64,000 bases of DNA. Origin: Vibrio ziniensis (lineage in GTDB: Bacteria > Pseudomonadota > Gammaproteobacteria > Enterobacterales > Vibrionaceae). Positions 1-2,056 of this stretch are shown one piece after another (position 1 is the first letter of the stretch; the number at the start of each line of letters is the position of its first letter). Both the position numbers and the translations under genes were made by a program. The stretch is from assembly GCF_011064285.1 (NCBI RefSeq), contig NZ_CP049332.1, positions 1,240,001 to 1,304,000 on the forward strand, in the 5' to 3' direction. Under the pieces are notes generated by a model that saw only the letters and a list, made by a program, of their open reading frames with translations, was not told the origin of the DNA and searched no databases.

Positions 1-1448
1 ATATTGGCTAGCAAAGCAATATTCGCGATCCAACCTAAACGACGATACCAAAGCGCCATAAACAACAATGTACTCGCCAAGCCTAAGGCCAGCGCTGCAA
101 ATCCATTCTCAATGTTTTCAGCACCTAAACTTGGGCCAATAGTACGCTCCTCGACAATAGTGACGGGTGCGGTCATTGAACCAGCTCGAAGTAACAAAGC
201 CAATTGCTGAGCTTGTTGATGTGTACCAACTCCGGTGATCCGAAAACTCTCAGGCAATACAGACTGGATGGTTGCGACGCTAATAACTTCATTATTCTGA
301 GTCAACGTCCCATCAGGCATACGACCATACTCACTAAATACGGTCGCCATCGGTTTGCCGATGTGAGTTTTGGAAAACGTGGTCATCTGCTTTCCACCCT
401 CACTATCTAAGGTAATGTTGACCTCTGCTTGTCCCAGTTCTCCGGCACTGGCTCTCGCATCAAGAATATGCGTTCCTGTCAAAACAGGAGTTTTTGCAAC
501 AATGACACTTTCCCCCTGCGCGTTATTGATGAACTGTCTATTGGCACCACGAGTTGGAAGCACTTCGTAAAATGCGAGCGTTGCTGTCGAACCAATAACG
601 TCTTTCGCCACCGCAGGATCTTGTACTCCCGGCAATTCAATTCGAATACGATTTTCACCTTCTCTCTGAACTAATGCCTCGGTCACTCCTAGTTCTTCAA
701 TACGGCTTCTCATAATCTGTAGATTTTGCTGGACGGTTCTCGTTCGCAAGTCGCTTTTATCTTTTTCATTGAGCTGAAGTTTTAACTTTTGCCCATCACG
801 AATTATTTGCCATTGTGGCAATTGACTCGCTACAAACGTTCTTACCTCCGTTCTTGCCTCATTAGGTAAAGTGAGTTGCAGCTGTTCTTCGTTGATAGAG
901 CTTAGTTGTAACCCTCTAATCCCCTGAGTTCGTGCAAATTCTCTTAGCGCGTTAGCCGCAGCTTCGGCTTGCAATTTATATACAGGTGTTGCATCAACGT
1001 CCAAAAGAAACTGAACACCACCACGCAAATCCAACCCGAGTTTTATTGGCGAAAACCCGAGGTTAAGCATCCAATCCGGCGCGGCTGGGCTTAATGAAAG
1101 TGTCAGTTTTTCAGGATACTGAGCATGTTTAGCGAGAATATCTTTAGCCTTCGCTTGCAGATTCGAGTCAGCCAAAACGACTTGGGTAGTTTGTTGGTTC
1201 GAGTTGATTTTCTTTATTAACACATCCTCTTGAGTGAGAACGTGGTTGATCTCCACTGAGTCAAGATTTAACCCAGCAGAGGATGGTATTTGAATAGCAG
1301 CATCTTCACCATACCAAGTGGGAATAGCGCTTAATGCCATGATGATAATAGTGGTGATTAATACTACATATTTCCATTTGGCGTTGCGATTGGGCAGCGC
1401 TGATGTGCGTCGCTTAGTGGACGCGTTAAAAATAGAATGATTAAACAT
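1..1448 (-). CDS. secD: Protein translocase subunit SecD (SecD2 type), C-terminus outside window
   Basis: SecD works with SecF in the inner membrane, using the ion gradient to help pull secreted proteins out of SecYEG. The minus-strand reading frame begins at an ATG at 1448 and stays open to the window edge (about 482 codons), so the C-terminus lies outside. Seen: one N-terminal membrane segment near residues 28-42, a long periplasmic P1 region, the SecD signature LGLDLRGGVQFLLDVD, a second conserved block (MRSRIEELGVTEALVQREGENRIRIELPGVQ, split here as MRSRIEELGVTEALV then ENRIRIELPGVQ) and the start of the transmembrane bundle (GFAALALGLASTLLFMALWY). It lies just downstream of a VemP-like gene on the same strand, the arrangement of secDF2 in Vibrio alginolyticus, so I read it as the second, regulated copy. 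secF is expected beyond the edge. The ribosome-binding region is weak and can pair with the sequence just after the upstream stop codon. Confidence 0.93.
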   Translation of the reverse strand, partial: MFNHSIFNASTKRRTSALPNRNAKWKYVVLITTIIIMALSAIPTWYGEDAAIQIPSSAGLNLDSVEINHVLTQEDVLIKKINSNQQTTQVVLADSNLQAKAKDILAKHAQYPEKLTLSLSPAAPDWMLNLGFSPIKLGLDLRGGVQFLLDVDATPVYKLQAEAAANALREFARTQGIRGLQLSSINEEQLQLTLPNEARTEVRTFVASQLPQWQIIRDGQKLKLQLNEKDKSDLRTRTVQQNLQIMRSRIEELGVTEALVQREGENRIRIELPGVQDPAVAKDVIGSTATLAFYEVLPTRGANRQFINNAQGESVIVAKTPVLTGTHILDARASAGELGQAEVNITLDSEGGKQMTTFSKTHIGKPMATVFSEYGRMPDGTLTQNNEVISVATIQSVLPESFRITGVGTHQQAQQLALLLRAGSMTAPVTIVEERTIGPSLGAENIENGFAALALGLASTLLFMALWYRRLGWIANIALLAN

Positions 1449-1454
1449 ATTTGC

Positions 1455-1571
1455 TCTTTGTCTTATTGAGCTTACGGCATAGCCGAACAGCAGGTAGCCC
1501 AACACCACCTAAACATGAGGTGATTGGATACCCAATAAAGTGTTATTTGCTTAAAAGCGTGGAGACAAAAA
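1455..1571 (-). promoter_or_regulatory. Possible stem masking the secD ribosome-binding site
   Basis: On the minus-strand mRNA, UUUUUGUCU (plus positions 1563-1571) starts two bases after the stop codon of the VemP-like gene and can pair with AGACAAAGA (1455-1463), which covers the purine-rich stretch just before the secD ATG. A smaller CACCU/AGGUG hairpin sits between the two arms. A ribosome stalled at the end of the upstream gene would cover the first arm and free the secD start, as described for vemP-secDF2 in V. alginolyticus. The pairing is seen in the sequence; its function is inference. Confidence 0.55.
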
Positions 1572-1573
1572 CA

Positions 1574-2056
1574 TCAAATATGATGGATAAAGCGGTACTG
1601 TAAGTTTGACTCTTTCCAGCCGTTTAGACGACCTCGCCCAGAATTGAATAGAGTCCAAGGATAACGTGGTAATGCAACAGCATATCCAAGACAAAGTTCA
1701 GGCACATTGGGCAATAAGATTTCTGCCGCGAGCAGATATTCGGGATGATCATCTTCAAAAGACAATCCCGACATACTGATGCAGCGCTGATTGACGGTAG
1801 GTGCATACCATAAGCCATCATTCAATGACCTATCATGCTGAGCTGTGTTAGTACTTTTTGCAGAATCAGAAGTATGAAAACTAAGATGTTCATCTTGTTG
1901 GATGTTAGAGTAACTCCCTGCATTAATCTGCGCAAAAGCCTTCCAGGTTGAATTCTCAGCAACACCAGAATAAACAGACACTAATACACTGACGAATAGT
2001 AATATCGTCAGTGTGCGCATGAGAGAAAATAAACTCGTTTTCATACTTAATATCAT
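1574..2056 (-). CDS. vemP: VemP-like Sec-export-monitoring arrest peptide
   Basis: A 160-residue secreted protein (156 if the ATG at 2044, MKTSLFSLM, is used; that start gives the more usual signal peptide). It has a positively charged N-terminus, a hydrophobic core (TLTILLFVSVLVSVYSG) and no recognised enzyme domain. VemP of Vibrio alginolyticus is a 159-residue exported protein encoded directly upstream of secDF2; it stalls its own ribosome until it is engaged by the export machinery and so sets SecDF2 level. Size, signal peptide, position 125 bases before secD and a basic, aromatic C-terminal tail (GRGRLNGWKESN followed by LQYRFIHHI) all fit. I did not align it with VemP, so which residues make up the arrest motif is not established. 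The name rests mainly on context. Confidence 0.75.
   Translation of the reverse strand: MILSMKTSLFSLMRTLTILLFVSVLVSVYSGVAENSTWKAFAQINAGSYSNIQQDEHLSFHTSDSAKSTNTAQHDRSLNDGLWYAPTVNQRCISMSGLSFEDDHPEYLLAAEILLPNVPELCLGYAVALPRYPWTLFNSGRGRLNGWKESNLQYRFIHHI

Follow-up and report, generated by a model that had tools for sequence, protein, structure and literature searches.

The window (the whole 64,000-nucleotide stretch of Vibrio ziniensis DNA analysed here) very probably carries the first part of a vemP-secD2-secF2 operon in which SecD2F2 synthesis is controlled by translation arrest. Homology, operon structure, arrest motif, and the start-masking stem with its opening were computed, while we infer the arrest itself, its export-dependent release, and the stall codon. 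The VemP family and its regulatory scheme are already known, and the original prediction of an arrest peptide gene in front of a masked secD start was right about the unit. According to published work, SecD2F2 is H+-driven and induced on failure of the Na+-driven SecD1F1 (PMC11470409, PMC7897499).

The unit is located at the left edge of the window on the minus strand (Table 1). The stop codon of the vemP homologue and the secD2 ATG are separated by 125 nt on the same strand, and the secD2 copy, cut at the left edge, is matched by SecD-type Pfam domains and NCBIfam SecD models. A secreted-type protein without an enzyme domain had been predicted before secD, and indeed the open reading frame (ORF) directly preceding secD2-secF2 has no Pfam or NCBIfam family match up to E 1; secF2, expected past the left window edge, was found there after secD2 (G000 C2:1238778-1239320). 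The host genome contains one SecD and one SecF on each of two contigs, and the window set, on C2, is its second SecDF set. The Rfam scan of the whole window matched tRNA alone, and the promoter scan of 1300-2400 gave one promoter-like site, which is chance level. As a candidate leader terminator, one terminator-like site was tried and rejected: it lies inside the ORF (1736-1722), and the scan of 1300-2400 found 1 such site against 1.2 expected.

Table 1. Features of the predicted vemP-secD2 unit, in window coordinates.
Feature	Position	Strand	Remarks
vemP homologue ORF	1574-2056	(-)	160 aa from ATG 2056; stop TGA 1574-1576
vemP homologue, alternative start	ATG 2044	(-)	156 aa; start used in the close relatives L010 and L011
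N-terminal hydrophobic, signal-like stretch (residues 5-34)	1955..2044	(-)	translation inspected by eye
Arg91	1784..1786	(-)	invariant in 19/19 VemPs; aligned with the QRW arginine of L137
Putative arrest-motif core, R143 to Y154 (RLNGWKESNLQY)	1595..1630	(-)	fits consensus RxxxWKxxNxxY
Tail RFIHHI, residues 155-160 (= V. alginolyticus 151-156)	1577..1594	(-)	stop at the place of F157
5' arm of masking stem (UUUUUGUCU)	1563..1571	(-)	+3..+11 after the vemP stop
3' arm of masking stem (AGACAAAGA)	1455..1463	(-)	-15..-7 before the secD2 AUG
secD2	1..1448	(-)	runs off left window edge; ATG start 1448-1446; Pfam/NCBIfam

By its sequence, the ORF is identified as a VemP homologue. Searched with a profile built from 19 relatives, the PDB yields the VemP nascent chain of 5nwy (E 1.8e-5), and the V. 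alginolyticus-type VemP of our collection (L137) is almost letter-identical to that chain (E 3.3e-87). The relationship is distant and depends on intermediate sequences, since PDB searches with the window protein alone (up to E 1) and with the window-clade profile (up to E 10) returned no match. Directly compared with L137, the window protein gave a BLASTP E of 1e-4 (a single comparison) at about 22% identity over 151 aligned residues, and hhalign of the window-clade and V. alginolyticus-type alignments covered residues 121-154 (probability 70.7, E 3.8e-5), so that both methods yielded the alignment in the C-terminal 40 residues with which the original prediction had associated VemP identity. 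The consensus arrest motif and the 5nwy match of the 19-sequence profile together bear out that identity. Invariant in the 19-member family alignment are R91, P105, Y107, L109, R143, G146, W147, K148, N151, and Y154, and the QRW arginine of L137, with which Arg91 aligns, is taken to be Arg85 of V. alginolyticus; the VemP release module comprises this arginine, a short hydrophobic segment, and (Hphi)xP elements. A RAPP-like C-terminal sequence, a motif defined here as abstracts describe it, is absent from the window protein. An unrelated exported protein standing before secD2 by chance, with an incidental pairing, would agree with the single-sequence searches that gave no family or PDB match, but it was already disfavoured and is very improbable in view of the same gene order and motif in many genomes and of the covarying pairing described below.

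A search with the window protein alone detected relatives in 72 of the 227 genomes that represent the genus, and the 19-row profile gave matches in 275 of 329 genomes of the family; named close relatives come from Vibrio rhizosphaerae and Vibrio sp. MEBiC08052, and one source files a relative under Shewanella. The vemP operon has been described as specific to Vibrio species (PMC11470409). In an order-wide sample of 375 genomes, 55 contained the motif, 29 of them in other families, and secD was downstream in all six of these 29 that were opened. VemP-type ORFs were also observed before secD in Pseudoalteromonas and Motilimonas (L197, L198, L199, L202, L206, L207, L210, L215, and L216), and two orphan VemP-like ORFs (L047 and L143) had no secD, dedA, or rodA close downstream. 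A published set of VemP-like proteins from 339 genomes has the same consensus as the window protein, and the same paper reports some genomes with two vemP-secD/F copies (PMC10987492).

That consensus, RxxxWKxxNxxY (PMC10987492), fits the window protein from R143 to Y154. The original prediction was mistaken in seeing no obvious fixed arrest motif; the differences lie in the last six residues and the stop position. Two observations count against the proposed scheme. The V. alginolyticus arrest sequence HRIxGWKETNAMYVxLNxx (PMC7897499) specifies 15 positions, and only 7 of them are identical in the window protein. The equivalent of V. alginolyticus N154, the side chain of which blocks the peptidyl-transferase centre (PMC5449182), is His.

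The predicted stem between the bases after the vemP stop and the secD2 ribosome-binding region is an exact 9-bp pairing, as originally claimed, and its 3' arm overlaps a weak purine-rich ribosome-binding stretch (1454-1459). Masking was scored as the partition-function mean pairing between the 11-nt ribosome-binding region and the 22 nt that directly follow the stop, and dinucleotide shuffles of the leader middle served as the control. Mean pairing probability was 0.76 in the window and 0.87, 0.86, and 0.92 in the close relatives L010, L011, and L012, far above the shuffle means of 0.04-0.11; the observed value was reached in none of 40 shuffles for each of the four, and in a rerun with 100 shuffles once for the window and never for the other three. 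As a control, 24 further pairs of neighbouring genes from the window were scored; two gave p<=0.05 and none reached 0.6, and L137 as the positive control gave 0.57 (0/40 shuffles). The stem is conserved at the window's own locus and in all three close relatives examined, with lengths from 9 to 10 and 11 bp; by eye, the arms of L010 and L012 differ by two double-compensatory changes (G-C to A-U and U-A to C-G) and one single-sided change.

The wider set of leaders is more mixed. Masking near the stop at p<=0.05 was found in 17 of 50 other vemP-secD leaders, L137 included, and many leaders of this set had no masking inside the first 22 nt after the stop. Four vemP-secD leaders with a window-type tail (L082, L083, L084, and L086) showed weak masking, one of four at p<=0.05 with 40 shuffles and none of the three retested with 100. 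These counts come from rows that are not independent, many being close relatives, and from start codons assigned by rule, some of them probably wrong (TTG starts in L075 and L079, a 32-nt leader in L088). Leaders of at least 200 nt were left out, so that 89 of 113 rows were scored (58/76 secD, 24/24 dedA, 7/7 rodA, 0/4 of the second dedA class, and 0/2 unclassified).

To mimic a ribosome at the stop, the nucleotides that it would cover were removed and the folding was recomputed; the unpaired probability of the ribosome-binding region then rose from 0.19 to 0.58 in the window, from 0.09 to 0.72 in L010, and from 0.08 to 0.72 in L011, and L012 opened little (0.03 to 0.24); the originally proposed scheme, in which a stall opens the stem, thus holds in silico for the window. 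In that scheme the VemP chain would enter export via Sec and, as homology suggests, its C-terminal module RLNGWKESNLQYRFIHHI would jam the ribosome exit tunnel when export is slow. The stalled ribosome would cover the first nucleotides after the stop, the 5' arm could then no longer pair with the 3' arm, and the freed secD2 start would allow SecD2F2 to be made, until resumed export pulls the chain, frees the ribosome, closes the stem, and turns secD2 off. Plain translational coupling, in which any terminating ribosome opens the stem without a regulated arrest, would suit a stem beginning 3 nt past the stop. We regard it as improbable, because the motif matches the published arrest consensus and the C-terminal protein is kept while its codons change, with 9 synonymous and 0 non-synonymous differences from L010 in the last 20 codons.

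Arrest-controlled synthesis being the preferred reading, the codon at which the ribosome would stall is a separate question. In the V. alginolyticus arrest complex, Gln156 is in the P site with Phe157 incoming at the A site (PMC5449182), which is a property of V. alginolyticus VemP, both positions being omitted from the published consensus. Counted from the invariant tyrosine, position 156 of the window protein is Ile (Ile160) and position 157 is the stop codon. The clade alignment has 12 rows, some of them not independent, and 11 have the same end at the 156 equivalent; the ORF of one window-clade member, P0006, extends 7 residues past it (QQA then SLSLSRR). Across the 113 motif ORFs collected (114 rows minus L004, which occupies the same place as L009), 30 stop at 157; all 30 have RFI tails, making up 30 of the 42 RF tails and none of the 71 non-RF tails. 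The stop at 157 is thus associated with the RFI(H/Q)xx tail type, and vemP-secD loci outside that type run 7 to 12 residues beyond the tyrosine. In the dedA class described below, the stop codons are TAG (9), TGA (8), and TAA (5), and as their identity varies, it is the stop position and not the codon that is kept.

The simplest reading of this pattern is that the RFI tail may represent a second kind of peptidyl-transferase-proximal module, one that stalls at termination. For the window clade we lean slightly towards a stall at termination, with the Ile160 codon occupying the P site and the stop codon the A site, whereas the V. alginolyticus stall lies at least one codon before the end of the ORF. 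An ordinary elongation arrest at least one codon before the end (P site at 154 or 155, A site holding a sense codon), with drift accounting for the short tail, seems unlikely, though it draws on the pre-termination stall known in V. alginolyticus and on the extra residues of a few same-tail relatives (P0006, L075, L088, and P0031-P0033); it requires the W/K contacts to lie closer to the peptidyl-transferase centre, and it leaves unexplained both the restriction of the stop at 157 to RFI tails and the exact end of 22 of 24 dedA-linked peptides at the 156 equivalent. A Q156-to-stop mutant of V. alginolyticus VemP stalls less (PMC5449182), and its stop is one codon before the stop position of the window clade; the portions of that paper available to us make no mention of a V. 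alginolyticus stop in place of 157.

Compared with V. alginolyticus VemP, the window protein shares the place before secD2F2, the Arg85-type residue, and the RxxxWKxxNxxY core (PMC5449182, PMC7793623, PMC11470409), as well as a start-masking stem opened, here in silico, by a stalled ribosome; its N-terminus looks signal-like by eye. It differs in the tail, where RFIHHI replaces VALNSQ, in the stop that replaces F157, and in a stem arm beginning 3 nt after the stop. Arrest at a stop codon is known from TnaC and the hCMV uORF peptide, and if the termination reading is right the window stall would resemble theirs; unlike them, it is proposed without a ligand and with a VemP-type tunnel motif, and no sequence similarity is claimed. 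Structurally, VemP has been compared with both peptides (PMC5449182).

The more novel part of the analysis, and its strongest new lead, is the dedA class, seen only outside the window, where ORFs of about 95-233 codons with a VemP-type C-terminal motif precede genes other than sec. At 24 distinct loci such ORFs, small and membrane-protein-like, lie directly before dedA (class members L039-L043, L045, L057-L064, L066-L076, L078-L081, L085, L088, and L103-L106), the downstream protein carrying the VTT domain of DedA proteins (PF09335, E 1.4e-19). The dedA-leader profile fetched 30 loci, 29 of them with a motif ORF as defined by our script, and the next gene in these 29 was dedA in 24, secD in 4, and the contig end in 1. 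In 22 of the 24 the peptide ends in RFIHSR or a close variant, immediately followed by the stop; the dedA set had been found with a profile of five RFIHSR-tailed members and is therefore biased toward that tail. In 15 of 24 leaders, a stem arising right behind the stop masked the dedA start at p<=0.05; pairing averaged 0.57, compared with 0.19 in shuffles. Two loci tie the dedA class to the secDF class, with motif ORF, dedA, and secD in one apparent operon: L201 (Ferrimonas senticii) and L219 (G257), the latter continuing with a 318-aa ORF. Named carriers include Vibrio mediterranei, V. thalassae, V. barjaei, Enterovibrio norvegicus, and E. baiacu, all with a RodA-like gene after dedA. A second kind of dedA gene is preceded in four cases (L146, L148, L150, and L153) by an ORF with a VemP-like body, with other ORFs between, either a small one or, in L153, a 368-aa ORF that we take to resemble an ion antiporter. 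In G009, a genome that has a V. alginolyticus-type VemP, a diverged motif ORF (L138:960-1445, + strand) ending in RIGVRKESNLIYRFIHAR and a stop precedes dedA, and on the opposite strand of L138, L091, and L101 further ORFs were seen whose diverged C-terminal motifs have TH(G/S)R or AHSR tails.

Motif ORFs ending in RLGGWKEANxQYR-type motifs also lie directly before an extra FtsW/RodA-like gene at seven distinct loci (class members L092-L098 and L145). The start was masked in one of seven distinct leaders, and the stem part of the scheme is thus not supported for this class. Three FtsW/RodA proteins were found in all seven other genomes examined and two in the window's own; the third gene is at the motif-ORF locus in G088, G195, G300, G275, and G231 and about 10 kb from it in G257, and no motif ORF was found in front of the third SEDS gene of G009. 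The genome of the window, where the motif occurs once, has no dedA of the L039 type; with only its three other DedA-domain proteins and two FtsW/RodA proteins, it lacks the extra operon. Among open-licence papers we found no report of DedA with arrest peptides, translation arrest, or VemP, and none linking arrest peptides to RodA. The VemP-like survey sought upstream ORFs for sec/yidC genes, and motif ORFs of dedA or FtsW/RodA are not mentioned in the parts of it available to us (PMC10987492).

Our results raise the possibility, put forward tentatively and at somewhat less than even confidence, that back-up envelope genes (secD2F2, dedA, and an extra FtsW/RodA-type gene) are guarded by a wider family of tunnel-jamming leaders with VemP as one branch, and that the sub-type in the window, with its RFI(H/Q)xx tail, stalls at the stop, the arrest acting on the release factor instead of an aminoacyl-tRNA. 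DedA proteins have been implicated in undecaprenyl-phosphate translocation and are suspected of proton-motive-force-dependent transport (PMC9876793). Given these roles and the published induction of SecD2F2, it is plausible that conditional, extra-copy envelope genes under one type of sensor are the common theme. The shift of the stall to the stop codon would be new, if confirmed, and one tunnel motif would then block peptide-bond formation in some bacteria of the family and the release of the peptide in a different lineage, a natural comparison not easily set up by design. Should the leaders of dedA and the SEDS genes stall as well, sensing through nascent chains would not be confined to protein export and would extend to a proposed lipid-carrier flippase family (DedA; PMC9876793) and to cell-wall synthesis, and a short C-terminal motif could be used to find such genes in genomes.
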